64,000 bases of DNA from Deltaproteobacteria bacterium (GTDB taxonomy: Bacteria > Desulfobacterota > Desulfobulbia > Desulfobulbales > Desulfurivibrionaceae), in assembly GCA_013349295.1 (NCBI GenBank), contig DUZW01000009.1:20924-84923 (forward strand), in the 5' to 3' direction. Under the pieces are notes generated by a model that saw nothing but the letters and a program-made list of their open reading frames with translations, had not been told where the DNA came from and made no database searches. A program made the position numbers and the translations under genes. Below, one piece after another: positions 23,760 through 60,494 of this stretch; position 1 is the stretch's first letter, and every line of letters begins with the position of its first letter.

Positions 23760-24064
23760 GCACCTCTCCCCACAAATTTTCCAACCACAAAAGAGTCCTG
23801 TTTAAGAAAAAAACGTAAAGGTATTGCCTTTCCTTCACGAAAAACAGCATATAATCTGCAACGACTTTATACAATCAATTATGATGATCTTGCCGGAAGT
23901 CGTGACCCCGCCAACAAACGGTGGCCACCATTTCGAAAATCCGCAAAAACAAACGGTTGACTCTTTCACCTGAAAGACCGGCTGCTGCGTTTTTGAGCTT
24001 TTACGATTTCAACACTTATCCGCAAACTTTTTTTTGGCTTGCACCTTTTTCAGCCGGAGCCCCC

Positions 24065-30713: not shown

Positions 30714-31118
30714 TTACGCCTGCTCGTCGAACAGCAGACCGGACAACTCTTGGAGTTTTGCCCGAAGCATCATAGCATCTTCCGAGGGAAACTGTTTTAT
30801 CAGCTTGCCGCTCTGCCGATCCGTAATCTGCACCACGACCTCATTGGGCTTTTCCTGAACCTTAAAATTCAGTCTGGTATTGCCCAGGGAATCGAGGCGC
30901 CGCTGCATCTCCTCCACCGCCTTGGCAACCTCCTTGGCGTCGGCAGGCTTTGGTTGCGATTTGGCATGCAGCTCTTTTTCTCCCAAACCAGACCGGGACG
31001 ACTCACTGCCCTTGGCCACCGGAGAGACTTGGGGTTTCACCTTGTCCTCCCGTTCCACGGCCGCAGGTGTTACCGTCACGCCAACTCCCTTGATTTCGGT
31101 GTTTACGCTGGCATCCAT
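30714..31118 (-). CDS. flaG: FlaG family flagellar protein
   Basis: VEEMQRRLDSLGNTRLNFKVQEKPNEVVVQITDRQSGKLIKQFPSEDAMMLRAKLQELSGLLFDEQA. Confidence 0.9.
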   Translation of the reverse strand: MDASVNTEIKGVGVTVTPAAVEREDKVKPQVSPVAKGSESSRSGLGEKELHAKSQPKPADAKEVAKAVEEMQRRLDSLGNTRLNFKVQEKPNEVVVQITDRQSGKLIKQFPSEDAMMLRAKLQELSGLLFDEQA

Positions 31119-31609: not shown

Positions 31610-32155
31610 CTAGATGGAAACAGAGAGTCCACCCATGGCTACCTGAGGCTGATGCACCTCATAATCTGTCCGTTTGTTCCCCCTTGGAGCAATGACCGGA
31701 CTCGCCGGCGGAGCCGCCGTCACAGCACCATCCTCGCTGCTGACCCCTGATTTTTTAACGGATTCCAACTCCACGCCCGACTCCCGCATGGCGGTCTCCT
31801 CCCAAATCGTCTTGAGTCGCTCCAAGTAGGTCCGCGCCAGACGCAAAACCTTCACATCCTCGGACACCGAAACCCTGGGGAGTTCCACCAGAATGGCCCC
31901 ATACAGACCCCGCAAAAATTGGGCGGACTCGGAATTATCCTCGGACTTGATTGAGGCCTGCAGTTCGGTGATGATCGCAATGGCTTTGCCCAGATTCTCC
32001 CCGCGTTTCTTGGAGGTATGTTCGCGGATTCCTTCCTCGGCCAGTTCGAGATGAAGCAAAACCCTTTCGTACAACATATGAATCAGCTTCACGGGCTGAA
32101 TTTCCGCCTGCTTTTCCGTTGTCCGATAGGCATCCAGCACTTTTTGCCCTACCAT
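31610..32155 (-). CDS. fliS: Flagellar export chaperone FliS
   Basis: VLDAYRTTEKQAEIQPVKLIHMLYERVLLHLELAEEGIREHTSKKRGENLGKAIAIITELQASI; start may differ. Confidence 0.88.
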   Translation of the reverse strand: MVGQKVLDAYRTTEKQAEIQPVKLIHMLYERVLLHLELAEEGIREHTSKKRGENLGKAIAIITELQASIKSEDNSESAQFLRGLYGAILVELPRVSVSEDVKVLRLARTYLERLKTIWEETAMRESGVELESVKKSGVSSEDGAVTAAPPASPVIAPRGNKRTDYEVHQPQVAMGGLSVSI

Positions 32156-32207
32156 GTGCACATCCTCCTCATCAGGTTGAAATTGTTGCAAACCGCCAAT
32201 CTTCTCA

Positions 32208-33590
32208 CTATTTGTTCGAACTGCCGGACAACATGTTGCTCAGGCTGTCGAACTGGCCCGTCAAATAATTACCCATAGACTTCATCTGACTCATGTATCG
32301 ATCCAGCTCAACAAACTGCTTGGTCAAGATTTCATATCTCTTATCAAGCCGCTGAGTCTGCGCCTCGATACTCAGATTCAAATCATCAATTCTGGTCTGA
32401 GCCCCTGTTTTTTCCGCGGCGATCTGTCCGGAGCCGCCGGTTGCCTCCCGGAGATAATCGTTGACCGTATCGGCAAAGCCACTGATCCCCTTCTCCTGAT
32501 CACCTGTAAAAAAAGCGGAAATACTGTCAGGCGTGGCTGCAATAGCCGCTGACAACACATCCTGATTAATAGAGATGGTGCCGTCGCGGTTGAACTCAAG
32601 GCCAAGATCGAAAAACGTGGTCACTTTCTTTGCACTATCCGCGTCAACACTCTTGGTCATCAGATTCTGCAGGGCATAGGGCAAATCGCGCAGGGTAGTT
32701 CTCGCCAGGATACCAAAGCTGCCCTTTTCCGAATCATATTTCGTGTTGTTGGAAATCTCCTGAACCACATCGTTATAGGCGGTTACAAAACTGGTGATCT
32801 TCTCAGCCAGGCCGCTGTTATCCGAGGCCACCGCAATAGAAACATCCCCAATTTTCTGGAAATTCAAGGTCACCCCAGGCATGACATCATCTACAGTGTT
32901 AGAGCCCCGGTAATAGGTAACATTGTCAACAACCAATTTTGCATCAAGCGCTTCGGCATTGGCCTCTTGCCGTTGCATGGCCATGAGATCCGGAATCTCA
33001 GCGATGGAAATACTATTGGTGCTCCCAGGTGCATCAGCCTGCAACATCAACTGATAGCGTTCGCTTCCGCTGCCGGTATCGATCACCTTCGCGGTCACCC
33101 CGGCATTGTTCTGATCGCTATTGATGAGGTCCGCAAGATCACTTAATTTCGTATCAGCCGGCACCGTAACTGATACTTCTGCCCCCCCCAGAGAATAGCG
33201 AAAAAGCCCTTCCACGGTATTGACCAGGCTGTCTTTTTCGGACATCCCACTGGCGAGCCAAGCACTTTTTGAAGCAAGGCGCTCAACGGAAACAGAACCA
33301 CTCTGCTCAGCTGTCCCAGAGATGACCGTGGCCGTCGCCACCGATTCATCAGAGCTGGTCACGGTCCGGTTGAAATAGGTGGAAGAAAGAGAAAGATCCA
33401 GAGCCGCGCTCTTCATGGTCAACAACAAGTTGTTGACCACGGTAAACTCGTTGAGCTGAACCCCAAGCGCGGTTACCTCGTTTTCCTTGCGAGTAATAAG
33501 CTCCTTATCCACAGCCTTGAGCTGATCAAGAATGCTCTGCAGCTCAAGACCGGAACCGACGCCCAGCGTTGAAATTGTGCCTGTTGCCAT
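32208..33590 (-). CDS. fliD: Flagellar filament capping protein FliD
   Basis: GTISTLGVGSGLELQSILDQLKAVDKELITRKENEVTALGVQLNEFT...; C-term LDDLNLSIEAQTQRLDKRYEILTKQFVELDRYMSQMKSMGNYL. Confidence 0.95.
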   Translation of the reverse strand: MATGTISTLGVGSGLELQSILDQLKAVDKELITRKENEVTALGVQLNEFTVVNNLLLTMKSAALDLSLSSTYFNRTVTSSDESVATATVISGTAEQSGSVSVERLASKSAWLASGMSEKDSLVNTVEGLFRYSLGGAEVSVTVPADTKLSDLADLINSDQNNAGVTAKVIDTGSGSERYQLMLQADAPGSTNSISIAEIPDLMAMQRQEANAEALDAKLVVDNVTYYRGSNTVDDVMPGVTLNFQKIGDVSIAVASDNSGLAEKITSFVTAYNDVVQEISNNTKYDSEKGSFGILARTTLRDLPYALQNLMTKSVDADSAKKVTTFFDLGLEFNRDGTISINQDVLSAAIAATPDSISAFFTGDQEKGISGFADTVNDYLREATGGSGQIAAEKTGAQTRIDDLNLSIEAQTQRLDKRYEILTKQFVELDRYMSQMKSMGNYLTGQFDSLSNMLSGSSNK

Positions 33591-33821
33591 GGGAGAATCC
33601 TTTTAATGCCTTATTGCCTGCAGGCGAATTGAACTTCCTCACCCATTATTCATATCGGCATCCCCAATTGCGTTCTTGAATATTTTCACAAAAAAAGAGG
33701 CGACAGCTGTTTCCAGCCACCGCCCCTGTTGAGGTTTATGCCTTGCTCCGAGATCGGTCCGGGATGTCCGGCCCCTGTTGTGTTTCCCTTGAGCCTTTCA
33801 CCTCGGACCTTTCAGCTCACC

Positions 33822-36800
33822 TTACCCCTGCAGCAAGCTCAAAACGTTCTTCGAGCTGGCATTGGCCTGGGCCATGGCAAAGGAGCTTGCCTGGTTCAGG
33901 ATCTGCATCTTGGAGAAGTTTGCAGCCTCCTCGGCAAAGTCAACGTCACGGATGCTGGACTCAGCAGAAGCGATGTTAACCTTGGTGGCACTCAGGTTGG
34001 AAATGGTGGAGGTCAACTGATTCTGTACGGAACCAAGATCAGACCGCACCTTATCCAAGCCCTTCAAGGCCGCATCGGCCACCGAGATGGCGACTTGAGC
34101 GCCTTCCTGGGTCAGAACGCTGATACTTGACAGGGTATTCCGCGAGGACTCACCGAGGGAAGTGGCAGAAAAAGTACCACTGTCCGCATTGGAACCCAGG
34201 ATGCTGCCGGCCTTGAGGACGGAACCACCCTGCAAGGTCATATCCGCGCCCAGGACCACATCGGCACCGGTAACCACGTCGTTGCTCAGTACGGTGCCGG
34301 CGGCATAAGAAGTGCCGTCATCACCGGTAACGCTGGTGGTGAGATAGGTGCCCTTGGTAAGGGTACTGCCTGCGGCAATGGTCGACCCCTTGACCACGTT
34401 CATTTCGGTGCCAGTGGCTACGGTTTCGTCGTTTTCCAGGGTGATGGAACCGCCAAAACTGGAACCGTTGGTGAGTACCGAGTTGTCGGCAATTACCGAG
34501 CCGGAGGCCACAGTGAAGTCCCCACCGGTAACATTGATGTCGGTGGCCAGGGTTACGCTGCCGCCCACGGTGGAGCCGGCATTGATGGCCAGGCTGGCGC
34601 CACCGACCAAGGTGGAGCCGGACTTAATGGTACCATCGCTGCCCATGGTCATATCGCTCAGGGTAGTCACCTCAGCGCCGACACTGGAACCGGCCTTAAG
34701 AATACTGCCGGTGAGGAATTTGGAACCGGTCTGCAAGGTCATCGCCTGGGTGAGCAACATATCGTTGGTGGAGGTGATCTCGGCACCAACATCGCTGCCA
34801 GCCTTGAGCACCGACGTCGCTGTAATCTTGGAGCCTTCCAGCAAGGTCATGTCCTGGGTCAGGGTTGTAACTCCCTTGGTAGTAATCTCCGCAGACACAT
34901 ATGAATTTGCTTTCAGGATGCTGTCTGCCGTCAATTTGGAGCCAGCATTCATGGTCATGTTATCGGTCGTAACCACCAAGGCATTTGTGGTAATGTTCGC
35001 CCCCAGATACGACTTTGCAGTAAGCGACGATAAAGTTGCCAGTTTCGACCCTGCAAGCAGGGTCATATCGTTACCAGCCGCCATTGCTCCCGAGAAATTC
35101 GCCCCGAGCTGCGAGCCAGCGGCCAAGGTGCTTGCCGCCGCCAGCTTAGACCCGGTCTTCAAAGTCATGTCGTTTGTTATGGCCAGAATATTGCCTGAGA
35201 TAGCCGCGTCCACATAGGAGCCGGCAGTTAAAGTACTACCGCTGGAAATACGCGAACTTCCCTTGAGAGTCATGTCATTTGACAGAGTTATTGCACCAGT
35301 TGCACCTGAGCGAGTTGTGAAATTTCCGCCAACGGAAGAGCCGATGGCGAAAGTATTGGTGCCTGAATCAGCTGCAGTCCCGAAACTAGATCCAGCGACC
35401 GCTGTGATCGAGCCATTGGTCAAGGTAACACCACCGGAGACTATCAGATCTGCGGTCAAAATTCCGCTCTGACCGTCGAACGCATTGGTGCCGAGATTGG
35501 TCCCTGCCTTCAGCACCGTACCACTGGCCAGGATACTACCCTGAGTAAGGACGCTGTCTGCCGTTGTAGTAACAATCCCCGAAATGCTTACGGCTTGCCC
35601 TCCAAGCACGGTACCGGCGCCGATAGTCGCACCTGAGTCCAAAACACTGCCCGCCTTCAGCAAGCTCTCCTGGACGGTTGAAGCGGTAAGACCACTGACG
35701 GTAACCGTTCCACCCATTACCGTATTTTTGGCAATGATACTGCCGGAATTGATCACAGATCCAGCCTTAAGAGTGCTGTCCGTGGTGGTGCTCACTGTGG
35801 TGGCGTCGGTAGAAGCCACCGCCCCCCCGAGAACGGTCCCAGCGGCAATGGACGAACCGGCAGTAAGGGTTGAACCGGCCTTGAGGAGACTGTCGCCGAC
35901 GGTGGCGGTGGTCGTCCCATTTTGTACAAATGTCGCCCCTAAAACTGTGCCCGCAGCGAGGACAGACGAGGCGTTCACCGAAGAACCGACCGTAACCAGG
36001 CTCTCGGCGGTAGTGTTGGCAGTAGTGGCATTCAAGGTGACCGTGCCGCCCAGCACCGTATTGGCGGCGATGGTTGAAAGCGTGGCCAGAGTAGAGGTAT
36101 CCTTGATCAGACTGCTGCCCACGGTGCTAACGGTGGTAGTCTTGACGGTAGTCGAGGCACCAAGTACGGTATTGGCCGCCAGAACAGTATCTGCCTTCAG
36201 GATACTGCCGGTGGCGACAGTACTGGCGCTGGTGGTTATGGCGGTGGTGCCGATGGTCACATCGCCGGTGAGATCGGAGCCGGCCGCCAGTTTACTGTTG
36301 GTTACAATCTTGGAGCCGGCGGTCAGGGTTGAATCCTGGGTGGTGATGATCGAGGCATTGGTGAAATTGGCTCCGGTCAACGCATCATTGGTAGTCCAGC
36401 CGGCGGCCAGGGTAGAATCCTGGGCCAGCGTCGATCCCGTCTTAAGAATAGATACAGCCGTTGTCGGCGCAGTGTCACCTTTCACCTCCAGATTACTGGT
36501 AAGCGAGATGGCCGCACCGCCGCCGATGTCGCGAACCAACACGTCCGAGGAACCCTCCTGATTGAGCATAATCTTGCCCAGGGTGGAAAGGTCGCCCCCA
36601 CCAAGAACATTCTGAGTAGCAGCATCACCGGTCACCTTGATTGCCCTGCCATCGGTGGATGTAAGGGTAAGATAGCCCCTGGTGTCAGTGCTTGCCACCA
36701 CCCCGTGCTGGGTGGTTTTCTTGTTGATCGTACTGACCAGCGCTGCATTGCTGTCATTCTGCTTAACATTGAACGACCCGATTGACACACCATTGATCGC

Positions 36801-37562
36801 AAAATCGGCACTGGTGGTGCCTGCGCTGATCGCCCCGGCAGAAGTAGACGAAACAATCGCCTTCGCGGTAATCCCGAGATCGCTACTCAACTGATTGATC
36901 TTATCGGCCAGCCCTCCGAGGCTGTTTTCACGGGTGTTATCATAGGCAATGTCGGTCGCCGATATCACAAAATCCTTATTCTGAAGACCACTATAAAGAC
37001 TGATCTCGACGGTCCCTTCACTGGACACGTTCATGAAGGAAGAAGTAAGATGTCCAATCTTGGCGGACTCCGCCGAATCGATGGAGATATTGACCGTTTC
37101 CCCTGCATAGGCGCCAATCTGAAATGCCTTATTGGTAAAAGCGCCCGAAAGCAGTTTCTGACCGTTGAAGGCGGTGGTTTTGGCAATCGAATCCAGTTCT
37201 TCGAGCAGCTTGTTGATGTCGGACTGGATCGCCTTCCGCGTATCAGTGGTCTGACCATCTTGGGCAGCCTGGATCGACTTCGTCTTAATGGTGTTGACGA
37301 TATTGATCGATTCCTCCAAGGCGCCGTCAGCAGTCTGAACCATCGAAATACCATCGCCTGCATTCCGTATACCTTGACCGAGGCCGAGGGACTGGGAACG
37401 TAGAGCATCTGCAATCGACATACCGGCTGCGTCATCGGCAGCCTTGTTGATCCGCAGACCGGATGAGAGTTTTTCGAGAGAGGCTGACAGACCACTATCA
37501 TTCTTGATCATGTTCTTATGAGCCGTCATTGCCGCAATGTTGGTGTTAATTCTTAATGCCAT
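33822..37562 (-). CDS. fliC: Flagellin with exceptionally long repetitive central domain
   Basis: N-term MALRINTNIAAMTAHKNMIKNDSGLSASLEKLSSGLRINKAADDAAGMSIADALRSQ; C-term LTSTISNLSATKVNIASAESSIRDVDFAEEAANFSKMQILNQASSFAMAQANASSKNVLSLLQG; about 1246 aa. Confidence 0.97.
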   Translation of the reverse strand: MALRINTNIAAMTAHKNMIKNDSGLSASLEKLSSGLRINKAADDAAGMSIADALRSQSLGLGQGIRNAGDGISMVQTADGALEESINIVNTIKTKSIQAAQDGQTTDTRKAIQSDINKLLEELDSIAKTTAFNGQKLLSGAFTNKAFQIGAYAGETVNISIDSAESAKIGHLTSSFMNVSSEGTVEISLYSGLQNKDFVISATDIAYDNTRENSLGGLADKINQLSSDLGITAKAIVSSTSAGAISAGTTSADFAINGVSIGSFNVKQNDSNAALVSTINKKTTQHGVVASTDTRGYLTLTSTDGRAIKVTGDAATQNVLGGGDLSTLGKIMLNQEGSSDVLVRDIGGGAAISLTSNLEVKGDTAPTTAVSILKTGSTLAQDSTLAAGWTTNDALTGANFTNASIITTQDSTLTAGSKIVTNSKLAAGSDLTGDVTIGTTAITTSASTVATGSILKADTVLAANTVLGASTTVKTTTVSTVGSSLIKDTSTLATLSTIAANTVLGGTVTLNATTANTTAESLVTVGSSVNASSVLAAGTVLGATFVQNGTTTATVGDSLLKAGSTLTAGSSIAAGTVLGGAVASTDATTVSTTTDSTLKAGSVINSGSIIAKNTVMGGTVTVSGLTASTVQESLLKAGSVLDSGATIGAGTVLGGQAVSISGIVTTTADSVLTQGSILASGTVLKAGTNLGTNAFDGQSGILTADLIVSGGVTLTNGSITAVAGSSFGTAADSGTNTFAIGSSVGGNFTTRSGATGAITLSNDMTLKGSSRISSGSTLTAGSYVDAAISGNILAITNDMTLKTGSKLAAASTLAAGSQLGANFSGAMAAGNDMTLLAGSKLATLSSLTAKSYLGANITTNALVVTTDNMTMNAGSKLTADSILKANSYVSAEITTKGVTTLTQDMTLLEGSKITATSVLKAGSDVGAEITSTNDMLLTQAMTLQTGSKFLTGSILKAGSSVGAEVTTLSDMTMGSDGTIKSGSTLVGGASLAINAGSTVGGSVTLATDINVTGGDFTVASGSVIADNSVLTNGSSFGGSITLENDETVATGTEMNVVKGSTIAAGSTLTKGTYLTTSVTGDDGTSYAAGTVLSNDVVTGADVVLGADMTLQGGSVLKAGSILGSNADSGTFSATSLGESSRNTLSSISVLTQEGAQVAISVADAALKGLDKVRSDLGSVQNQLTSTISNLSATKVNIASAESSIRDVDFAEEAANFSKMQILNQASSFAMAQANASSKNVLSLLQG
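34230..36450 (-). repeat. Degenerate GS-rich coding repeats in flagellin central domain
   Basis: Repeating units about 34-38 aa such as NDMTLKTGSKLAAASTLAAGSQLGANFSG / NDMTLLAGSKLATLSSLTAKSYLGANITT. Confidence 0.85.
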
Positions 37563-37779
37563 GGTATTTTCCTCCATCCATGTTTTGGTGTTTAGGGAAA
37601 TCCTTTTCCCTGCTGAAATTACTCGTTTCGAACTGCATTAACCCTTTTGCTATCCATCCCGAAGTGTAACCTTAGATATTTCTTTTACAACCCAGCGGTC
37701 ACCTCCTTTGGGGAGCCAGCCCCCTTCAAGAGTTAGACACATTTGCCCCACAGAGCAGAGTTATCCTATTTCAATCTAC

Positions 37780-37806
37780 CTATCGGCCAGACTTAACAGT
37801 ACTTGA
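37780..37806 (-). promoter_or_regulatory. Putative sigma-28 (FliA) promoter of fliC
   Basis: Reverse strand TCAAGTAC-N11-GCCGATAG, close to TAAAGTTT-N11-GCCGATAA. Confidence 0.65.
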
Positions 37807-37853: not shown

Positions 37854-37894
37854 AAAAAAAGGTCCTCTCCGGAACTAAGTTCCGAAGAGGACCC
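37854..37894 (-). terminator. Rho-independent terminator downstream of the Maf glycosyltransferase gene
   Basis: Reverse strand GGTCCTCTTCGGAAC-TTA-GTTCCGGAGAGGACC-TTTTTTT. Confidence 0.9.
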
Positions 37895-37928: not shown

Positions 37929-40900
37929 TTAACCAAGACGTTCCCTCAGTTGACGATAAGCTTCATGGGCGGCTTCCAGCTGATCCATGGCCAAGTAACA
38001 ATCTCCTATTTTCTTTAACACATGAAGTTGTTCCGGCCGGACGATGAAATATTGCCTGTAGGCGGCCAGGGCATCGGCAGGTTGTTGGCCGCCAAGGAGC
38101 AGATCGCCAAACTCTTCCCAGTGCCCGGCAAGGGAGTGGTCTAGGGCCACCGCACGTCCCAGGGCCGCCACCGCCCGGTCAAAATCTTGACAATTAAAGG
38201 CAGCCTCGAAAATCGCGACCCAGGTTGTTGCTTCGTCCGGGCAGAGCTCGACAGCCCGCTCGAAATATGCCAGGGCCTCGGAATAATCGGCCTGCCCGAA
38301 ACGCAACTGCCCTTGGGCCAAAAAAACAGCCGCCTTTTTGGCCGGCGCAACAATGGCGGCCAGCTCGGTATTCGCGATCAATGCCCCGCCAAAAAATCCC
38401 AACAAATCGGCCAAATCATCCGCCGACTCCTGCCGGGACAAGACCCGATCCAGCTCGACATTGACTGCTTGAACCAGATCCGGATACTCCTGTGTATAGG
38501 CAAGCGCCTTCAGTAACATTCGTAGGGCGACCAGTCGGTCATTTTGCCGCCATTCCCGATAAAACCAAAGATAACGCCCGGCAAGCCCAAAGCGACAGGC
38601 CTTGATCTGCTCAGCCCAGGCAGGATCAAGCTTCTCGGCCCTGGCAAAATAGTCTTCCATTTTTATCAACTGGTAGCGATGGGCCGCGATGGCACCCAGA
38701 TAAAAAGACAATTCCGCCGATTGATCCGGCTCAGGGCAATTGGCCGCGATGGCCTTTTCCAACAGGACGTGATCGCCGTTTTCAAAATACAGCCGAAGCA
38801 GTTCCAGCACGGTCTCCCTGTCATCTCCCTTTGATTTGGCGAGTTTCTTGAGTAAAAAATCCTCCCGCTGGAGATGGCGATGCAAATTTTTCACCTTCTG
38901 GGCGAAGGGTGCCAGAACCTGCCAACGGAAGCGGCTGATCACGACAAAGCGATTGAGTGACCTGTTCAGGCATTCAAGGTATCGATCCGGCTGGTCAGCC
39001 AGATCTTTGACCTCATGGTTCAAACGCTCACTCAAGCACAAGCCTTCTCTGGTAGCCTCTTCCAGCAAGGTCCAGACCTTGGCCTTATCCAACCGCTCAT
39101 TTAATGCATCCAACGCAAGAAATTGCCGCTGCAAAGACACGGGAAGGGTTTCGAATTTTCGGCAGATGGAGCCCTGCGCCAGCAACTTGGTGATTTGCGT
39201 GGTGAGCTTTGCGACCATATCATCCAAGCTGGACATGTCCTTTTCGACAATGGCAATATCTTTGTTCATGCGCGCAAGTGCGTCGATCATCTGTCGCCGA
39301 CCGGGCATCCGGCCACTGCCTTCCGCTTTCTGAATGAGCACAGCGACATCAATCTCCCTGTCGCAATAACGGCTCAGCACCTCCTGCAATGGCAATTCTT
39401 CCGCGCCCTCCAGCCGGACGCCGCCCTCGGTGGCATTGATAAATTGCCGGTCCTTTTCCGCAGTCATGGCCTGCTCCAAGTGGTGCTTGAACCCGAGAAA
39501 GCTCCGCGAAGTCGGCACCTTGCCACCGCCATAACCATCGGCGAAGAGGATTTCCTGTCTGGCAAAAAGTCCCTTCTGACTATCATTGGTCGTCAGCGAG
39601 GCGTGCAGAGCATGGCTCCCTTGCTCACTGAAAGCCAGATCCTGTCCGACAAAAACAATGGGTGAACACCCCAAAAGACTGGCGGCGAGGAAGTTCATGT
39701 GGGCAACGGTGCCGGCACCGGTGGTAAGGATCTTGCCGCCCAGGAGATGATTGAGCCACATTTCCATATGGCCGGCCATGAAGGTCCAGTACACCTGACG
39801 CGCCGGGAAATTTTTTGTCACTGATGAGGTCACCCATGCGCTGCATACCAAGGAAGTATTGGTCGCTTCTGGGGCGACCGCAACAATTTTTTCAAAGGTG
39901 ATATCATCCATATCGATACAGGAAGTGAAGTCCGGAGTTACTCCGTGGGCAAGCAGGGCGGGCAACACAGTATCCGCGGCAATGATTACCGCCTTGCCTT
40001 TGGCCTGGGACAGCAGGTGGATATTTTTGTTCAGCGAAGGGCCGCCGGCCACGATGATGGCCGGGACTCCGGCAAAGGTATCCTTGAGATGTTCGAGTAG
40101 CTGCTGGTGATGAATAGCGCTCAGGTGGCGGAGCCGATTGTTGATAAATTTTGCGCCATGAACAGTAGTGGTATTGCCACCGGTATTATAGGCATTCCCA
40201 TACTTAAATATCTCATCGTAAATAGCCATGTAAGTCTCCGGAGCAATCCGAAAACAAGGAGTATGCCGGAGAATATAAAAGCTTTCCAGTTGCAGAGCAC
40301 GGGACATTGGGGCCAGAAACGCAAGGGCATCAATATCCGGGCCAATAGCGATGCTTACCCGGCGATTGGTGATGAGGAATGTTAAGTCGAGGGCATGGAG
40401 CGCTTGGATAAAAATACCGGTTTCCGGCTCCAACACCGCGAGATGGTGAATATGCTTGCGGCTGTGCAGCATGGCCAATGGGCTGTAGCCCAAGCCCATG
40501 CCGATAAACATCACCACCCCGGCGGCGTTCTCCGGGACCAGGTTGTAATAGTCGGCCAACTCGGCAAGAGGCGATCTGGTGTCGTGGAGGAAAATTTCCT
40601 CCCCATCTTCCTTCCTGACTATTAGATTCTGATTGCCGTCTTCAGCCGGTTGGAACTCACCCAAGGGTTCGTCGGCATAGTCCATCACCGTTTGCCATAC
40701 TTGAGGATGATGCTCTTTCAACAGAGCCAAATTATCCTCAATGTAGTCTTTCGGCTTGGTGAAATCTACAGCAACAGACAATGCTGCCTGGGAGGGTTGC
40801 GAGATCTGGAAGCCGCTGAGGGAGAGACTGCCTGTAACTTTTTCGCTGAAATCGACAAACGAAAAACCGAAACTAGCAACCGCATTTAAAGTCTTATCCA

Positions 40901-41363
40901 AATCATTAGCAGGATTTTCTGCAGCAGGGTAACTCCGATGCCACTGCTCCGGTTCGACCTTTAAGATAAGGCGGAACTTTTCACCCCAGCTCCCTTCCGG
41001 AATTGCAATGGGGGCACCGATATAATGCCAGCGGGTAACTGGCGGCTCCGAGGTCACCCAAAAAAAACAACGCCCCCCTTTGAGATGCAGGCCATCGCCC
41101 CGCAAAAAAAACTCCACTTCTGCGCCCCGAAGATCTAAGTGCGCTTTTTTATCCCAACAGGGATAAACCAGAAGAGCCAGGATGGAATGAGGAGATTCCG
41201 GGGTATCGATACTCCAGCAGGAGTCATCGGCCCATATCCAGGGCCGGCCATCCGGCCCCCCTTGGGGTTCAAAATTAGCGGCATGAAAAATATGATCCGG
41301 ATAGGAGCCAATATACTCATAGCTCCTCCAGGCAGAAAGCGTTGGGATAGCAGCACTTCTCAT
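37929..41363 (-). CDS. Motility-associated factor (Maf/DUF115) glycosyltransferase with C-terminal TPR region
   Basis: IHLLSQAKGKAVIIAADTVLPALLAHGVTPDFTSCIDMDDITFEKI...LASLLGCSPIVFVGQDLAFSEQGSHA; C-term TPRs FGQADYSEALAYFERAVELCPDEATTWVAIF. Confidence 0.9.
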   Translation of the reverse strand: MRSAAIPTLSAWRSYEYIGSYPDHIFHAANFEPQGGPDGRPWIWADDSCWSIDTPESPHSILALLVYPCWDKKAHLDLRGAEVEFFLRGDGLHLKGGRCFFWVTSEPPVTRWHYIGAPIAIPEGSWGEKFRLILKVEPEQWHRSYPAAENPANDLDKTLNAVASFGFSFVDFSEKVTGSLSLSGFQISQPSQAALSVAVDFTKPKDYIEDNLALLKEHHPQVWQTVMDYADEPLGEFQPAEDGNQNLIVRKEDGEEIFLHDTRSPLAELADYYNLVPENAAGVVMFIGMGLGYSPLAMLHSRKHIHHLAVLEPETGIFIQALHALDLTFLITNRRVSIAIGPDIDALAFLAPMSRALQLESFYILRHTPCFRIAPETYMAIYDEIFKYGNAYNTGGNTTTVHGAKFINNRLRHLSAIHHQQLLEHLKDTFAGVPAIIVAGGPSLNKNIHLLSQAKGKAVIIAADTVLPALLAHGVTPDFTSCIDMDDITFEKIVAVAPEATNTSLVCSAWVTSSVTKNFPARQVYWTFMAGHMEMWLNHLLGGKILTTGAGTVAHMNFLAASLLGCSPIVFVGQDLAFSEQGSHALHASLTTNDSQKGLFARQEILFADGYGGGKVPTSRSFLGFKHHLEQAMTAEKDRQFINATEGGVRLEGAEELPLQEVLSRYCDREIDVAVLIQKAEGSGRMPGRRQMIDALARMNKDIAIVEKDMSSLDDMVAKLTTQITKLLAQGSICRKFETLPVSLQRQFLALDALNERLDKAKVWTLLEEATREGLCLSERLNHEVKDLADQPDRYLECLNRSLNRFVVISRFRWQVLAPFAQKVKNLHRHLQREDFLLKKLAKSKGDDRETVLELLRLYFENGDHVLLEKAIAANCPEPDQSAELSFYLGAIAAHRYQLIKMEDYFARAEKLDPAWAEQIKACRFGLAGRYLWFYREWRQNDRLVALRMLLKALAYTQEYPDLVQAVNVELDRVLSRQESADDLADLLGFFGGALIANTELAAIVAPAKKAAVFLAQGQLRFGQADYSEALAYFERAVELCPDEATTWVAIFEAAFNCQDFDRAVAALGRAVALDHSLAGHWEEFGDLLLGGQQPADALAAYRQYFIVRPEQLHVLKKIGDCYLAMDQLEAAHEAYRQLRERLG

Positions 41364-42964: not shown

Positions 42965-43723
42965 TCAAAACCTCACCGGAATTCCCTTGCTATACAGGTA
43001 ATCCTTGGCTGCCAACGGGGTTTGCTCGGTAAAATGAAATATACTGGCGGCTGCGACTGCTGCTGCGTTCCCAATAGTCAAAGCCTTGTACAGATCCTCA
43101 TAGATCCCTGCCCCTCCCGAGGCAATCACCGGAATATCCACTGCTTCACTCACCTGCTGAATCAGCACCAGATCATAACCCTCCATGGCGCCATCCCTTT
43201 CAATACTGGTAAGCAAAATCTCGCCTGCACCCAACCGGGCTGCCTCCTTGACGAAGACAACCGGATCAACACCGGTAGCCCTGTGCCCTGAATGGGTAAA
43301 AATTTCATACCGCCCAGAGGCCTGCTTCCTGACATCAATGGAAACAACAACACATTGAGAGCCAAATCGCTGCGCCACCTCCCTGATTAGCTCCGGGTTG
43401 CGCACCGCCTCGCTATTAATGGCGACCTTATCCGCACCTACATCGAGCAACCGCCGGACATCATCAAGTGACCTGACCCCGCCACCCACAGTAAGTGGCA
43501 TAAAGCATTCATCCGCCAGATCGTCAATCAGCTCAAAATCCGGATCCCGCTCCTCGCGCGTGGCAGTAATGTCGAGAAAAATCAACTCGTCGACCTCGCG
43601 CATGTTATACACGCGAATTGCCTGCATGGCGCTACCAACTCCCCGCCAGCTGTCGAATCCAACCCCCTTGACCAGTTCAAAATCCCTGTAGAGCAGGGTC
43701 GGCATGATCCGTACCTTGAGCAT
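42965..43723 (-). CDS. HisF-like cyclase subunit (glycan amidination paralogue)
   Basis: MRIMPTLLYRDFELVKGVGFDSWRGVGSAMQAIRVYNMREVDELIFLDITATREERDPDFELIDDLADECFMPLTVGGGVRSLDDVRRLLDVGADKVAINS. Confidence 0.9.
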   Translation of the reverse strand: MLKVRIMPTLLYRDFELVKGVGFDSWRGVGSAMQAIRVYNMREVDELIFLDITATREERDPDFELIDDLADECFMPLTVGGGVRSLDDVRRLLDVGADKVAINSEAVRNPELIREVAQRFGSQCVVVSIDVRKQASGRYEIFTHSGHRATGVDPVVFVKEAARLGAGEILLTSIERDGAMEGYDLVLIQQVSEAVDIPVIASGGAGIYEDLYKALTIGNAAAVAAASIFHFTEQTPLAAKDYLYSKGIPVRF

Positions 43724-43731
43724 ATTGTCTC

Positions 43732-44349
43732 CTACAAGGCCAGAAAATTACGCAACAATTGAAAACCGGCGCGTTGACTTTTTTCCGGGTGAAACTGGAC
43801 CCCGAAAATATTCTTTTCTCCAACAATCGAAGTAAACCCGCCGCAATAGGGGGTAGTGGCCAAGCGATTCTCCGCCCGTTCACAGACAAAATGGTAGCTG
43901 TGAACAAAATACAAATCCTTTCCGGGTCGAATCCCTTGCAGGAGAGGCGAATCAACCTCGGGGCACACCTCATTCCAGCCCACATGAGGAATTCGCACGG
44001 ACGGGCTGTCCTGCTGCAACCGAACAACCTCCCCCCTGATCCATCCCAGGCCACGATGCTCCCCAAACTCGTAACTCTTATCCGCCAGAAGCTGCATACC
44101 AAGACAAATCCCTAAAAACGGGATCCCTCGATCCAGTACGCGTTCCGCAACCATCTCGTCCAACCGCCGCTGACGGATATTCTGGATAGCATCCCCAAAA
44201 GCTCCGACCCCTGGCAAAATAATGCAATCAGCATTTTTAATCTCCGCTTCGGCACAGGTAATCACCGGATTAGCCCCGCATTCTTCCACCGCGCGAAATA
44301 CCGAATCAACATTCCCCATACCGTATTCAAGAATAGCGACCTTTTTCAT
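43732..44349 (-). CDS. HisH-like glutamine amidotransferase (glycan amidination paralogue)
   Basis: VAILEYGMGNVDSVFRAVEECGANPVITCAEAEIKNADCIILPGVGAFGDAI...GIPFLGICLGMQLLADKSYEFGEHRGLGWIRG. Confidence 0.92.
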   Translation of the reverse strand: MKKVAILEYGMGNVDSVFRAVEECGANPVITCAEAEIKNADCIILPGVGAFGDAIQNIRQRRLDEMVAERVLDRGIPFLGICLGMQLLADKSYEFGEHRGLGWIRGEVVRLQQDSPSVRIPHVGWNEVCPEVDSPLLQGIRPGKDLYFVHSYHFVCERAENRLATTPYCGGFTSIVGEKNIFGVQFHPEKSQRAGFQLLRNFLAL

Positions 44350-45518
44350 GAATTATCATCATTGATGCGGGTGAGATTGCCATGCTTGTCCTTGACCAAA
44401 CGACCATTGGCATCACGGACAAAAAGCTTCTTATTGGTGAATCGGTCACAAATCCGAATAAACTCCTCGACAGTCATATCCAGAGGCGCCAGTATTTCTT
44501 CCAGAGATTTCCCCAAATATTCCCATGGGAACTTACCATCATGCTTTTTCACAAGCTTGATTCCCTGGACTCGGGTCAATCGATCACGGCGAATGTGCAG
44601 GCAGGAAATATCCGTAGCCCGTCCAAAGGCAAATTTGAGAAATTTAAAATAGTCGTGGATTCCGGTCTGATGATTGTCCAGATTTTCATAGTTCACGACT
44701 GATCCTTCAACGGTCTTATGATAGGTCGTAAATCCATGCGCTTGGGCCAACAGGGCGTTGGCATAGCCATCCCATGGAATAAAATACCCAAGAAAAATGC
44801 CGGTCACGCCAACCCGTTGCAAATCCACATCCGAGGGATAGGTGTATTGGATGAGGTGTTTTGGTTCGATCCCATCCTCCAGCAGCAAATCGCTTACCCG
44901 CAGCCCCAACAGGCCGCCGAATTCCTCCAGCCAGCGCCTGGTCAACACCTGATCACTCACCGCAGCCGCAGGCCCGCCATACTCGTTTTGCGAATTTTCT
45001 CCCCAAATGATCAGAGGAACATTAAATTTCACCGCAAAATGAATGGGAATTGTAAAAATGGCCACATGCTCCGGCCAGGAAATATCTCCAATCTGTGTCA
45101 AGGCGAGTCGATTGATCTTTCTCCTGATCGCAGGGTTAACCGACATCTCCACATAATCAACGCCAAGATTCTTTATATTTTCGATATTTTGGCGACCGAT
45201 CTCGGAAAGCATATCGGTTGAAGCAGTTACACAAAGAGGATTCATGCCAAGCTCAAGTATCTTGATTACCTGGGCATGACTATCCTTTCCTCCACTCACC
45301 GGAATGATGCAGTCATAATTGCTCCCGTCCTTTGAGCGATAACGATCCAGGATGGACATAAGCTCTCTTTCACGGGCATCCCAGTCAATTACCTGACGAT
45401 TCTCAAAATTCCTGCAGGCGCTGCACACGCCGTCCTGATCAAGATGAAGATCGGGCTTGGTCTCAGGCATTACGCAACGCGTACAATAGTGAATATGTTT
45501 TTCCATAATAGTCTCCAT
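44346..45518 (-). CDS. N-acetyl sugar amidotransferase (PseA/WbpG-like)
   Basis: HYCTRCVMPETKPDLHLDQDGVCSACRNFENRQVIDWDARERELMSILDRYRSKDGSNYDCIIPVSGGKDSHAQV. Confidence 0.92.
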   Translation of the reverse strand: METIMEKHIHYCTRCVMPETKPDLHLDQDGVCSACRNFENRQVIDWDARERELMSILDRYRSKDGSNYDCIIPVSGGKDSHAQVIKILELGMNPLCVTASTDMLSEIGRQNIENIKNLGVDYVEMSVNPAIRRKINRLALTQIGDISWPEHVAIFTIPIHFAVKFNVPLIIWGENSQNEYGGPAAAVSDQVLTRRWLEEFGGLLGLRVSDLLLEDGIEPKHLIQYTYPSDVDLQRVGVTGIFLGYFIPWDGYANALLAQAHGFTTYHKTVEGSVVNYENLDNHQTGIHDYFKFLKFAFGRATDISCLHIRRDRLTRVQGIKLVKKHDGKFPWEYLGKSLEEILAPLDMTVEEFIRICDRFTNKKLFVRDANGRLVKDKHGNLTRINDDNS

Positions 45519-45538
45519 TCAGAATCCCACAAAAACGG

Positions 45539-46189
45539 CTATCGTTTCTCCATCAGAAACCAGGTGAGGTCATCCAAGGGAAAGTTCAAATCCCCATGAT
45601 AGACAAAACCGTAGTCAAGAAGTCTCAGGTCGGAAAAACGCGTCAACATCTCTCCGGCAAAATCACGTTTGAACAGCCGGCCGCTGTGACCCCGGTAGCT
45701 TACCTCCACCGGTGTGGGGTTGTAGTATTCGATCAGACAAACGTAGCGCCGACTCGCCGCATGGAGCCGGTCGTACACCTGGGGCAGCATCTCGGGATTG
45801 ACATGAATGAGCACCCCGGAGATAAAGGCAAGGTCGTACTGCCGCTCCGGAGTAAAGTCCAAGATCGACTGGTGAAGCACCTGAGTCTTGCCCCACTGCT
45901 CAAGCACCGCTGCCGCCTGTTCGTTGATCTCGATGGCGGCCAGATCCATGGAGGGAAACATCTGGTGCAGCACCCGAAGGTTGTTGCCGATATTGGCGCC
46001 AAACTCAATGGCAGACTCCACCCCGCTGGTGCGCGCCATGATACGGGCAAACAACGCCAGCCGTGCTCCCAGCTCCTTGGGGGTCGGATTACGGCCGATA
46101 TACTGGTCACCGAACTCCCCGGCCCAAAAGGCCTCCTGTTCCGTTTGAAAAGCGGTCATGGTATTCTCCTCTGCCTTATTTGTTTTCAA
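45539..46189 (-). CDS. Pseudaminic acid biosynthesis-associated methylase
   Basis: TEQEAFWAGEFGDQYIGRNPTPKELGARLALFARIMARTSGVESAIEFGANIGNNLRVLHQMFPSMDLAAIEINEQAA. Confidence 0.88.
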   Translation of the reverse strand: MKTNKAEENTMTAFQTEQEAFWAGEFGDQYIGRNPTPKELGARLALFARIMARTSGVESAIEFGANIGNNLRVLHQMFPSMDLAAIEINEQAAAVLEQWGKTQVLHQSILDFTPERQYDLAFISGVLIHVNPEMLPQVYDRLHAASRRYVCLIEYYNPTPVEVSYRGHSGRLFKRDFAGEMLTRFSDLRLLDYGFVYHGDLNFPLDDLTWFLMEKR

Positions 46190-46911
46190 GCAATCTCACC
46201 AGTCATACGAAGGGCCTGATGCATGGCCTCGGCAGTGCGCCAGTCTTCCAAGGTATCGATGTCCTGCACCAGCCGACGCGGCAGCACCACGGGTCTCGCA
46301 TCACATGCGTAGATCTTCTTATCCCGCCGGAAGCGGGCAACATCGAGCCAATAAAACTGCCCGGCATCATGGTATGCCTCGGGCAGATCGTTGGAACGGG
46401 TCAACTCGTGCTCCGGCCACAGCATGGCCAGCCTGCCATCCTGGCCGATGGTCAGGGCGCGGAACGGCGAAGCAGGGTAACTGGCCACCGGAAATACCGA
46501 AGCCGCATCGGTCTGCTGCATCAGCTCATACCCCTGCCGCAAAAAACCGGCTCGGACAAAGGGCGCTGTTGCGTATAGACAGCAGACTCGCTCCGGCTTC
46601 GTTCCCTCTCCGGCCAACCACTCCAGAGCGTGAAGCACCACCTCGGCGGTGGGAGTAAAATCATCGGCAAGCTCGGCTGGCCGGACAAATGGGACCTCTG
46701 CCCCATATTGCCTGGCAACTGCGGCGATCTCCTCCGAATCGGTGGAAACGATGATCCTGGCAAAAAGCCCTGAAGCCTCAGCCGCCTGGATGGACCAGGC
46801 AAGCATCGGCTGACCGGCAAATGGCCTGATGTTCTTGCCCGGAATCCGCTTGCTACCACCTCGGGCCGGGATAATCGCAATATTCATGGCAAGCCTCCGA
46901 TCATCTCCCAA
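46186..46911 (-). CDS. pseF: Pseudaminic acid cytidylyltransferase
   Basis: MNIAIIPARGGSKRIPGKNIRPFAGQPMLAWSIQAAEASGLFARIIVSTDSEEIAAVARQYGAEVPFVRPAELADDFTPT. Confidence 0.93.
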   Translation of the reverse strand: MGDDRRLAMNIAIIPARGGSKRIPGKNIRPFAGQPMLAWSIQAAEASGLFARIIVSTDSEEIAAVARQYGAEVPFVRPAELADDFTPTAEVVLHALEWLAGEGTKPERVCCLYATAPFVRAGFLRQGYELMQQTDAASVFPVASYPASPFRALTIGQDGRLAMLWPEHELTRSNDLPEAYHDAGQFYWLDVARFRRDKKIYACDARPVVLPRRLVQDIDTLEDWRTAEAMHQALRMTGEIA

Positions 46912-47939
46912 CCGAGCGGCGTTCCCTTGGGGATGTCCCGACAGGCCCGCCGGCCCAACACCTGGCCAAGATACTTTGGCGCCAGCCCATGTCCTGGTCG
47001 GATGGAGCGGATCTTCTCCGGGGTGAGAACCTCACCGGCCCGAACGTCTTCCACCACGAACAACGACCTCCGGAAGGCCCTGCTCTTCTCTTCAGAAGCG
47101 GACGGCTCATAGCAAACTCGTCCCAGAGCCTGCTCGGTCTCGCGCACCGCCGCCACCATGGCCGCAAACTCTTTCGGTGCAAGAGAGAAGGTGCTGTCCG
47201 GGCCACCCGCCGTCCGGTCCAAGGTAATATGCTTCTCTATAATCGCCGCTCCCAACGCCACCGCAGCCACCGGGGCAACAAGCCCAATGGTGTGGTCGGA
47301 CAGTCCGGCCACTACTCCAAAGGCCTCGGCCAGATGTGGGATGGTACGCAGATTCATGTCCGCCGCCTGCGCCGGATAGGCGCTGGTGCACTTGAGCAGG
47401 GCGATGCCGCCTGCCCCGGCCCGCCGCAGGGTAGCCACCGCCTCATCTATCTCGGCAAGAGTGGCCATGCCGGTGGACATGATCACCGGCTTACCGGTAC
47501 CCCCGATCCGTTCCAGCAATGCATGATCCACCAATTCAAAAGAAGCAACCTTGTGGGCCGATACCTCCATGGACTCCAGAAAATCCACCGCCGTGGCATC
47601 AAAGGGGGTGGAAAAAAGGGTGATCCCCACTCGGTCGGCAATCTCCTTGAGCTTCGGCTGCCATTCCCAGGGGGTATACGCCTCTCCGTAAAGGTCGTAC
47701 AGGGTGCGCCCCTCCCAGATGGTCCCCTTGATCCGAAAGTATTCGTTGTCACAGTCAATGGTCAGGGTATCCGGGGTATAGGTCTGGAGCTTCACCGCAT
47801 CGGCGCCGGCCTCCTTGGCCGCCTCAATAATCCGCGCCGCCTGGTCGAAATCCTGACCGTGGTTGGCACTCATCTCGGCGATGATATAGATCGGATGACC
47901 GGTGCCGATGGCCCGACCATTGATAGTGATCTCAGTCAT
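46884..47939 (-). CDS. pseI: Pseudaminic acid synthase
   Basis: IYIIAEMSANHGQDFDQAARIIEAAKEAGADAVKLQTYTPDTLTIDCDNEYFRIKGTIWEGRTLYDLYGEAYTPWEWQPKLKEIA. Confidence 0.95.
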   Translation of the reverse strand: MTEITINGRAIGTGHPIYIIAEMSANHGQDFDQAARIIEAAKEAGADAVKLQTYTPDTLTIDCDNEYFRIKGTIWEGRTLYDLYGEAYTPWEWQPKLKEIADRVGITLFSTPFDATAVDFLESMEVSAHKVASFELVDHALLERIGGTGKPVIMSTGMATLAEIDEAVATLRRAGAGGIALLKCTSAYPAQAADMNLRTIPHLAEAFGVVAGLSDHTIGLVAPVAAVALGAAIIEKHITLDRTAGGPDSTFSLAPKEFAAMVAAVRETEQALGRVCYEPSASEEKSRAFRRSLFVVEDVRAGEVLTPEKIRSIRPGHGLAPKYLGQVLGRRACRDIPKGTPLGWEMIGGLP

Positions 47940-49452
47940 GTTGATTCCTTTCCAGCCGTAATGACACCGCCGGGATACCGCACCGTTCCGTTTCAGCCTC
48001 TGCGACGAAACCGGCCTTGGTAAAAGACCTCAGCGAGGCATAGTTCTCCTTTTTGACCAAAGCGATGATCCGCCCCACTCCTTGCTCCTCCCGAAACAGT
48101 CGGGCACAGGCCGTTCTTATCAGGACGCTTCCCAACCCCTGTCCGCGGAGGCCAGGAGCCAGATTCACCGAGATCTCCGCCATACCCTCGCCCAGATCAA
48201 ATCGCACCAGGCCCAGTTTGGCGGTGTTCGAAAGCGCAGCCAACCAGAGGCGACAATCCGGAGCAGTGAGTTTCGCGGCCAGCCACTGTTCATGGCCCTC
48301 CGGACTGATGGCCTCGGGACGGAAGGAGTTCTTCCGGGTCTTCGGATCATTGGCCCACTGGAGCAGCACATCTTTGTCCTGCCAGCCGGCGGGATGCAAT
48401 GTCATCCCCTTCGCCAGCAGAGCAGTGACCACCCGCCCGGCACCACGTCCATCCACCAGCCTGCACCCCGTGACGGCCTGGGCCTGACGTTGCCCGCCAT
48501 CGTGCAAAAATTCCCGCAACCGGCTGGCCAGCGCATCCGGACCAAGGGCGTCATGCCAACCCAGCGTCATGGCCACCCTCTGGCGAGCAAGCTGACTGGC
48601 ATTCTCCTTCTGATTGTCCGCCGTGACCAGAGTCACAAACGGCACCCCCACAGAGGCCAACTCGTAAGTAGTGGTGCCTGCCGCAGTCACAACAACATCC
48701 GCCCAGCGCATCAAGGCGGCCATATCAATCACGTCCCGCGCCAACTCACACCGAAATGGCAGGCTGGCCGTCAACCCGGCAAGTATCCCTGCATGCGGAT
48801 TGGCCGCCCCCACCACCACCTTAACCTCCAACCCGTCAATATCACTGGTAGCCAGGGCAGAGAGCACCCGGGCACTCACATTGTGCTGGTCCGCGCCGCC
48901 CATGGTGACCAACACCCGCTTAGCCACCACCGGAAATAAACGCTCTTCGCCGGAGCGCCGAAACTCCCGGCGCAGCAGGGCGTAACGCGGCCCCAGCAAC
49001 CTGGTCGCCTCGGGAGGGCAATTGTAGGGAATATTAGGGGCGTAGAGATTCTGATTGAGCAGCGCATCGCAGTGGTAGTCGGCCAATTGCCCCAAGTCAT
49101 CAATCACCAGCAGTTGCCAACCGGCCTCCCGCAGCCCCTGCTGGTAAACACCGTCAAAATGGTAGCCATCCAGCACCATCCAGCCCGAGGAGACATGCGG
49201 AGACAATTGTTCCCCAGCCAATCGGCGCATGGCCGCAAGGTCTGCCGGGTCAGGATAACCACCTGCCAAATCGAGCAGAACAGCTCCTTCCGATTCTATC
49301 CTCCGACGCAACGGTTCCGGCTCGATCCTGCCTGCAAAAAGTACCTCACCACCACGATCACGCCACTCCTCGGCCAACGCCAGGCAACGCATGACATGGC
49401 CGGTGCCCATGGCGCCGTCCGCATCGGCCCGAATCACCAACCTGCCGATCAT
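47932..49452 (-). CDS. pseG: PseG (UDP-sugar hydrolase) fused to a PseH-like GNAT acetyltransferase
   Basis: N-term MIGRLVIRADADGAMGTGHVMRCLALAEEWRDRGGEVLFAGR...VLVTMGGADQHNVSARVL; C-term GNAT MTLHPAGWQDKDVLLQWANDPKTRKNSF...LRGQGLGSVLIRTACARLF. Confidence 0.92.
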   Translation of the reverse strand: MIGRLVIRADADGAMGTGHVMRCLALAEEWRDRGGEVLFAGRIEPEPLRRRIESEGAVLLDLAGGYPDPADLAAMRRLAGEQLSPHVSSGWMVLDGYHFDGVYQQGLREAGWQLLVIDDLGQLADYHCDALLNQNLYAPNIPYNCPPEATRLLGPRYALLRREFRRSGEERLFPVVAKRVLVTMGGADQHNVSARVLSALATSDIDGLEVKVVVGAANPHAGILAGLTASLPFRCELARDVIDMAALMRWADVVVTAAGTTTYELASVGVPFVTLVTADNQKENASQLARQRVAMTLGWHDALGPDALASRLREFLHDGGQRQAQAVTGCRLVDGRGAGRVVTALLAKGMTLHPAGWQDKDVLLQWANDPKTRKNSFRPEAISPEGHEQWLAAKLTAPDCRLWLAALSNTAKLGLVRFDLGEGMAEISVNLAPGLRGQGLGSVLIRTACARLFREEQGVGRIIALVKKENYASLRSFTKAGFVAEAETERCGIPAVSLRLERNQHD

Positions 49453-50633: not shown

Positions 50634-50655
50634 CGAAATCCCCAAAATCCGGTTC

Positions 50656-60187: not shown

Positions 60188-60494
60188 CAAGCCGTTGTTC
60201 AAAAAACAATGCCCCATTGGAATATGGGAATCGACATAAGGAGCCGTAACGCAATAGCTAAAAAAGTACAGGTTATCTCTTAACGGCTCCTAAGCCTTTA
60301 CCAAAAAAATTAAGCAATTGTGATCCCAGAAACGGCATAAGGAGCCGTAACGCAATAGCTGAAAAAGTACAGGTTATCTCTTAACGGCTCCTAAGCCTTT
60401 ACCAAAAAAAATAAGCAATTGTGATCCCAGAAACGGCATAAGGAGCCGTAACGCAATAGCTGAAAAAGTACAGGTTATCTCTTAACGGCTCCTA
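60188..60494 (+). mobile_element. Three tandem MITE-like palindromic repeats, copies F1-F3 (period 101 bp)
   Basis: cATAAGGAGCCGTAACGCAATAGCT(g/a)AAAAAGTACAGGTTATCTCTTAACGGCTCCTAA repeated with starts at 60235, 60336 and 60437. Confidence 0.92.

Follow-up and report, generated by a model that had tools for sequence, protein, structure and literature searches.

The stretch of DNA analysed here (the window) is 64,000 nucleotides long and comes from a sulfate-reducing member of the family Desulfurivibrionaceae in the Desulfobacterota (assembly GCA_013349295.1, contig DUZW01000009.1, positions 20,924 to 84,923). Its minus strand encodes a giant flagellin of 1,246 amino acids. We consider it probable that the protein is a structural flagellin and that a hexapeptide-repeat beta-solenoid of about 757 residues stands where Campylobacterota-type flagellins have their small outer domain, making a thick and probably glycosylated filament. 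The flagellin ends, the repeat tract, the insertion site, the conserved locus, and the promoter-like and terminator elements can all be read from the sequence itself. The best explanation of the insert, in our judgement, is that it takes the place of domain D3 of a Campylobacter-type flagellin as a rod-like outer domain that would thicken the filament.

The flagellin ends and the repeat tract

The gene runs from an ATG at 37562 to a stop codon at 33822-33824, exactly where an initial annotation had placed a flagellin of ~1246 residues, and both flagellin ends are intact in the protein (Flagellin_N and Flagellin_C in Pfam; Table 1). A further in-frame ATG, at 37577, lies upstream but coincides in part with the GGAGG ribosome-binding site (37575-37571), which favours 37562 as the start. 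Residues 141-375 are 48-56% identical to those of 14 relatives, and profile matches of the region at residues 144-370 in the Protein Data Bank (PDB) include 9yh1, 6x80 and 9ygu, which are Helicobacter pylori FlaB, Campylobacter jejuni FlaA and H. pylori FlaA, respectively. These Campylobacterota flagellins align with the window flagellin over D0/D1 and the adjacent outer region, but they are only ~490-575 residues long. By global alignment the insert sits between window residues ~345-353 and 1153 and replaces ~60-80 residues; the window protein has ~800 residues in their place.

The tract at residues 371-1127 consists of about 20 degenerate units of 31-56 residues, most of them 34-38 residues long, with pairwise identities of 14-57%. 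The initial annotation, which described about 750 residues of 34-38-residue units, was therefore close on the extent of the tract (757 residues) and on the length of most units, but the true period is about 6 residues, L/I/V-x-x-G-S/T-x, which is the hexapeptide-repeat signature. Tandem [LIV]-x-x-x-[STAV]-x hexads are present in the insert, and the protein has 80 hexads in runs of at least 3, about eight times the shuffled expectation (mean 9.9 and maximum 28 in 500 shuffles). The spectrum of aliphatic residues peaks at 6.2 residues with a height of 22.7, compared to a shuffle maximum of 12.1. A generic 34-38-residue repeat is thus replaced as the basic unit: judging from the sequence, each unit is best read as six hexads, or two coils of a three-sided solenoid. 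The motif first quoted for the units (NDMTL...GSKL...LGA) is present at residues 763-977, but it represents only the second of two unit types. The first, ending in ...GTVLGG, spans residues 410-668, and the irregular segment between the two types (residues 669-762) is a possible hinge.

We searched 84,980 species genomes for relatives, using the conserved region upstream of the repeats, and found 56 loci in Desulfobacterota (Desulfobulbales, Desulfobacterales and relatives) and 19 in Campylobacterota. The 56 Desulfobacterota loci share the repeat-bearing design: all 48 of their complete proteins above 700 residues (792-1,428 residues) have hexads well in excess of shuffled sequences, and in one further member (L075) a stop codon cuts the frame at 639 residues. 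In contrast, homologs at the 19 Campylobacterota loci contain 0-3 hexads, and the complete ones are 483-511 residues long. An arrangement of first-type units followed by second-type units, changing over at about mid-insert, occurs in the window protein, L046, L097, L098 and several others, but by a motif scan across the family it is not general.

Fold of the insert

In the window insert, the Pfam model Hexapep scores 40.3 bits (cut-off 27, E = 2e-10), and LbH_EIF2B, a left-handed beta-helix (LbH) model, matches with E = 2.8e-7, which is below that model's cut-off. When 18 family members were scanned singly at E up to 1, Hexapep was found in 17 of them and LbH_EIF2B in 17, and none of the 18 matched a Pfam family of right-handed helices. 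Among the listed matches of a family profile to PDB sequences, those besides flagellins are hexapeptide LbH proteins: LpxD is the best (5e-8), others are LpxA, GlmU, gamma-carbonic anhydrases and further proteins of this kind, and none is an autotransporter. The hexad signature, the Hexapep match over its cut-off and the LbH matches in 17 of 18 relatives together make it very likely that the insert is a beta-solenoid, as the initial annotation had suggested, and narrow the description to a hexapeptide-repeat solenoid. Its helix is more likely left-handed than right-handed, the first being moderately probable and the second fairly unlikely.

Structure prediction, which had been proposed as a check, bore out a solenoid in a shorter relative but not convincingly in the window protein. 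For L081, an 808-residue flagellin from the same genus, the best AlphaFold2 model (made with 22 sequences) has a mean predicted local distance difference test score (pLDDT) of 77.3, and its solenoid region, with short strands about every 6 residues, lies mostly at 80-94. The flagellin part of this model superposes on H. pylori FlaA (VIA Z 29.7, 414 residues aligned, root-mean-square deviation [rmsd] 4.4). Only flagellins are among the best 50 VIA matches of the full-length model, a result that does not exclude LbH chains.

Several observations weigh against the solenoid or its left-handedness. The five L081 models vary, with mean pLDDT from 77 down to 55 (64 to 55 in the other four). The AlphaFold2 model of the window insert (residues 141-1165, 18 sequences) is poor, with a mean pLDDT of 59.6, a predicted template modelling score (pTM) of 0.32, and block pLDDT values of ~45-65; its best non-flagellin matches, among those listed, are right-handed helices. 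AlphaFold2 also over-predicts confident but unrealistic beta-solenoids for perfect repeats (PMC11795689), a concern that is lessened, though not removed, because the repeats here have diverged (14-57% identity). Since the window insert model is weak, the case for the fold leans mainly on the sequence and on the better model of L081.

The right-handed matches of the window insert model are to pertactin (Z 15.2, 305 residues aligned, rmsd 6.2), to the hyperglycosylated adhesin TibA (Z 13.5, 250 of 274 residues aligned, rmsd 4.5) and to Ag43/UpaB. They conflict with the left-handed fold suggested by the sequence, although the lack of LbH chains among the listed matches does not exclude a likeness to them. 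If these matches were taken at face value, the insert would be a right-handed beta-helix like those of autotransporter adhesins (pertactin, TibA, Ag43), and the flagellum would be mainly a glycosylated surface for adhesion or self-aggregation. The insert is Ser/Thr-rich and acidic and its gene adjoins a glycosyltransferase gene, and TibA, AIDA-I and Ag43 likewise combine a Ser/Thr-rich solenoid with a dedicated glycosyltransferase. However, the structural match is weak, coming from a model with block pLDDT of ~45-65, and these adhesins use type V secretion, have a different sequence repeat and lack flagellin ends. With right-handed Pfam families matching 0 of 18 relatives versus 17 for LbH models, and autotransporters missing from the listed PDB matches, we regard this explanation as unlikely, although it is the strongest of the alternatives.

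We find it improbable that the insert is a flexible, glycosylated linker without a stable fold, whose repeats merely supply acceptor sites. Its low complexity (T 18%, S 14%, G 13%, A 13%) would suit such a linker, as would the low confidence of the window model and the AlphaFold2 bias towards solenoids (PMC11795689). However, a strict hydrophobic period of 6 is kept over ~50 diverged sequences and the curated Hexapep model passes its cut-off. Across 2,035 family hexads, in which position i is L/I/V and i+5 is often Thr/Val, Gly makes up 56% of position i+3 compared to 13% overall, and this enrichment is unselected because i+3 was not part of the search pattern. Charged residues are also few (29 basic and 45 acidic in residues 371-1127, pI 4.4). 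An enzyme domain, whether a hexapeptide acyltransferase resembling LpxD, LpxA or GlmU or a protease as in flagellinolysins (there are known enzymatic flagellins; PMC7643111), can practically be dismissed: the similarity is at the level of the repeat only, and residues 371-1127 contain no His or Cys (relatives have very few), so the catalytic His of LbH acyltransferases is absent and the HExxH zinc motif of flagellinolysins is ruled out there.

Distribution of the insert and its association with maf

Hexad flagellins range from 808 to 1,246 residues within the window's genus and from 792 to 1,428 over the relatives, so the comparison of repeat number that had been proposed does reveal differences between species. 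The distant relative L046 is, like the window protein, 1,246 residues long with nearly identical unit spacing. Among isolates, the insert is carried by Desulfurivibrio sp. AMeS2 (which has two hexad flagellins in tandem, of 1,195 and 1,209 residues), Desulfobotulus alkaliphilus, Desulfospira joergensenii and Desulfamplus magnetovallimortis. An insert-only profile applied at a strict cut-off to 148 genomes across the phylum found no carrier other than flagellins: it matched 4 genomes, in flagellin-sized frames of 811-835 residues or in the window gene.

The window flagellin gene contains no tandem repeats detectable at the DNA level, and a recent DNA tandem duplication was rejected for it. Five relatives (L045, L050, L051, L052 and L061) do show recent tandem duplication–for example, the copies in L061 are 89% identical over 245 bp. 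The insert has grown recently by tandem duplication in some lineages (L061), and in others (L046) the layout is old. The assembly of the source genome is fragmented (66 contigs, 88% complete), which could make the length an assembly artefact, or the gene a pseudogene, with a much shorter true gene. There is next to no chance of this, because there are no near-identical repeats to be collapsed or duplicated in assembly, the frame is open with an intact C-terminus, L046 has the same length and spacing, and isolates carry the insert, with long members in AMeS2, Desulfobotulus alkaliphilus and Desulfospira joergensenii.

Other flagellins in these genomes differ from the hexad type. The source genome has a second, ordinary flagellin (L002, contig C45) with an open frame of 293 residues, and flagellins of ~285-300 residues are present in most relatives, with or without a giant flagellin. 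Because of the 293-residue flagellin, a mixed filament is possible. The source genome also encodes a FlgL-like hook-filament junction protein with a Flagellin_N domain in an unusually large frame of 1,248 codons (L003, C4:34193-37591). The 1,158-residue flagellin L031 (G032:C79) has almost no hexads, represents another kind of giant insert, and has three Maf-family genes on its contig.

The initial annotation had also noted a glycosylation locus next door. We found there a Maf/PseD-like glycosyltransferase (7.5e-39 to the PseD model, below that model's cut-off), PseC, PseG, PseH, PseI and PseF, a Pse methylase, and WbuX, HisH and WbuZ. Together with a PseB-like dehydratase, these genes predict an amidinated pseudaminic acid. 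The dehydratase frame (50659-51975, minus strand) begins with a MerR_1 domain (1.9e-16, residues 17-86) followed by Polysacc_synt_2 (residues 102-373), an unusual fusion of a regulator and a sugar enzyme. Campylobacter and Helicobacter flagellins carry pseudaminic acid.

The initial annotation took Ser/Thr residues of the insert as plausible O-glycan sites because of this locus, but that does not fit the most conserved serine. Ser/Thr occupies position i+4 in 76% of the 2,035 family hexads, a position that belonged to the search pattern (S/T/A/V/C/G allowed). In hexapeptide helices the small i+4 position points inward, so the conserved serine of the GS motif is a poor candidate and more likely structural. 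Ser/Thr at i+1, i+2 or i+5, or in T-rich stretches, would be better candidates. The Maf targets known so far are found close to apolar residues or within low-complexity stretches (PMC11339370), a preference that would suit hexad repeats, and a reference cited in the same paper reports that Maf acts before export.

Among 38 genomes, maf (PF01973 over its cut-off) is present in 14 of the 16 with a hexad flagellin and in 3 of the 22 without (Fisher P = 7.5e-6); a fourth hexad-negative genome, G029, has a sub-threshold Maf match. Within the window's genus the split is complete (7 of 7 versus 0 of 10), and there are two alternatives at the same locus: hexad flagellins accompanied by a nearby maf (L128-L131), and flagellins of ~600 (L127, L137, L138) or ~490 (L139) residues without maf. 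A gyrB+rpoB tree implies 13 changes in the hexad state and 14 in the maf state. Two results count against the coupling. After correction for phylogeny it is only a trend (~5.7 concordant versus 0.5 discordant pairs, median P = 0.125), and some of the hexad and maf labels rest on incomplete genomes, in which copies may be missed. Furthermore, Desulfurivibrio alkaliphilus AHT2 (G019), described as non-motile, has a 933-residue hexad flagellin but no Maf match; this gene (C1:1659266-1662064; L014, L134) is intact and lies outside the usual locus.

Locus, known systems and proposed role

The gene order Maf - flagellin - FliD - FliS - FlaG - sat is kept in related genomes. Flanked by a sigma-28-like promoter and two terminators (Table 1), the flagellin gene is probably its own transcription unit. 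A strict sigma-28 pattern gave no match, so relaxed scoring was used, by which sites of at least 12/16 lie upstream of 42 of 62 family genes, compared to 5.5% of shuffles. A sigma-54 scan was not clearly above chance.

Table 1. Coordinates of the flagellin gene, its parts and its neighbours in the window.
Feature	Position	Strand	Basis
Giant flagellin gene, 1,246 aa	33822..37562	-	Open reading frame, Pfam
Ribosome-binding site GGAGG, 8 bases before start 37562	37571..37575	-	Sequence
Flagellin_N, D0/D1 N-terminal helices, aa 5-143	37134..37550	-	Pfam PF00669, 2.5e-45
Conserved class-specific region, homologous to D2-type region of Campylobacterota flagellins, aa 144-370	36453..37133	-	Identity, profile matches
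Hexapeptide-repeat solenoid domain (predicted), aa 371-1127, 757 residues	34182..36452	-	Hexad statistics, Pfam, profile
Type A units, ending ...GTVLGG, aa 371-668	35559..36452	-	Unit alignment
Irregular middle segment, aa 669-762	35277..35558	-	Unit alignment
Type B units, DMTLxxGSKLxxxSxLxAGSxLGA, aa 763-977	34632..35276	-	Unit alignment
C-terminal units, less regular, also hexad-rich, aa 978-1127	34182..34631	-	Hexad statistics, unit alignment
Flagellin_C, D1/D0 C-terminal helices, aa 1160-1244	33831..34085	-	Pfam PF00700, 9.4e-27
Sigma-28-like promoter TCAAGTAC-N11-GCCGATAG	37780..37806	-	Sequence match only
Terminator at maf end, upstream of flagellin	37860..37894	-	Terminator scan
Terminator after flagellin gene	33696..33727	-	Terminator scan
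FliD filament cap	32208..33590	-	Pfam
FliS flagellin chaperone	31610..32191	-	Pfam
FlaG	30714..31118	-	Family scan
Maf/PseD-like flagellin glycosyltransferase with tetratricopeptide repeats	37929..41363	-	PF01973 8.3e-36, Maf_flag10_N 1.7e-7
Pseudaminic acid locus with amidination genes (WbuZ, HisH, WbuX, Pse methylase, PseF, PseI, PseG-PseH, PseC, PseB-like)	42965..51975	-	Family scans

Elsewhere in the window, a 910-residue frame on the plus strand (23921-26653) has a C-terminal domain of the FGE-sulfatase type (residues 652-909), preceded by ~650 residues with no Pfam match at E 0.001. At 60202-60504, in a mostly intergenic stretch, a 101-nucleotide repeat occurs in three tandem copies, which are 80-85% identical to the first. 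An Rfam scan of the window, including this repeat stretch, gave no match.

Giant flagellins and thick filaments are already known. Those of Bermanella marisrubri and Oleibacter marinus make filaments of at least 30 nm in these two marine bacteria, and a giant flagellin was listed in 2018 for the sulfate reducer Desulfotalea psychrophila, which belongs to the same broad group as the window's source (PMC6248924). Like the window protein, the giant flagellins of Thomson et al. (PMC6248924) exceed 1,000 residues and have a huge insert between normal ends, and growth by internal duplication was proposed for them. The inserts described there differ, consisting of DE regions that have been duplicated and a DX insert restricted to flagellins, and the main text mentions no hexapeptide, solenoid or glycosylation. 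LbH proteins (LpxA, LpxD, GlmU, gamma-carbonic anhydrases) share L/I/V at i, G/N/D at i+3 and S/T at i+4, but they are enzymes with short helices, whereas the window insert has ~40 predicted coils, lacks the catalytic His and is inside a filament subunit. Outer-domain-sheath flagella (enterohaemorrhagic Escherichia coli H7, enteropathogenic E. coli H6, Achromobacter, Sinorhizobium) also have enlarged outer domains on the filament surface, and the authors of PMC8931119 link them to viscous habitats. Their flagellins are ~545-570 residues long, with outer domains of conventional size that form dimer or tetramer sheaths, as seen by cryo-electron microscopy. In the open-access literature (subscription papers were outside the search) we found no report of hexapeptide, left-handed helical, beta-helical or solenoid flagellin inserts. 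The new points are the family-wide hexapeptide solenoid and the coupling to Maf.

We propose that the giant flagellin chain would be exported unfolded, that its D0/D1 ends would polymerise into a normal filament core, and that the insert, on the outside, would fold one rung after another into one or two stiff rods projecting from every subunit. Using general solenoid values (~18.6 residues and 0.48 nm per coil), 757 residues would make ~40 coils, or ~19.5 nm as a single rod and ~10 nm if the chain runs out and back. An out-and-back pair is attractive, since the insert has to start and finish at D1, and it could accommodate the two unit types. The adjacent Maf would probably decorate outward-facing Ser/Thr with amidinated pseudaminic acid before export. 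The filament would then be thick, acidic and coated with sugar, and it would vary in thickness with repeat number. Candidate benefits are stiffness or load-bearing in viscous sediment, protection from phages or proteases, and adhesion; a protective and stiffening coat is our guess. More broadly, we put forward tentatively, at somewhat under even chances, that a class of flagella widespread among sulfate reducers is coated by hexapeptide beta-helical spokes of 10-20 nm, glycosylated by a co-inherited Maf, that flagellin and maf are exchanged as a pair, as alternative alleles of one locus, and that repeat number tunes filament thickness between species.

Flagellins have hypervariable outer domains, few of which have been characterised structurally. 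Here, what seems to serve a whole lineage of environmental anaerobes as its filament coat is a repeat fold otherwise associated mainly with enzymes. With its natural length series, the family could be used to test how filament diameter, stiffness and glycosylation depend on outer-domain size, and whether a Maf transferase and the domain that it targets move together. It may also provide a scaffold in which long rods are displayed on a self-assembling filament.

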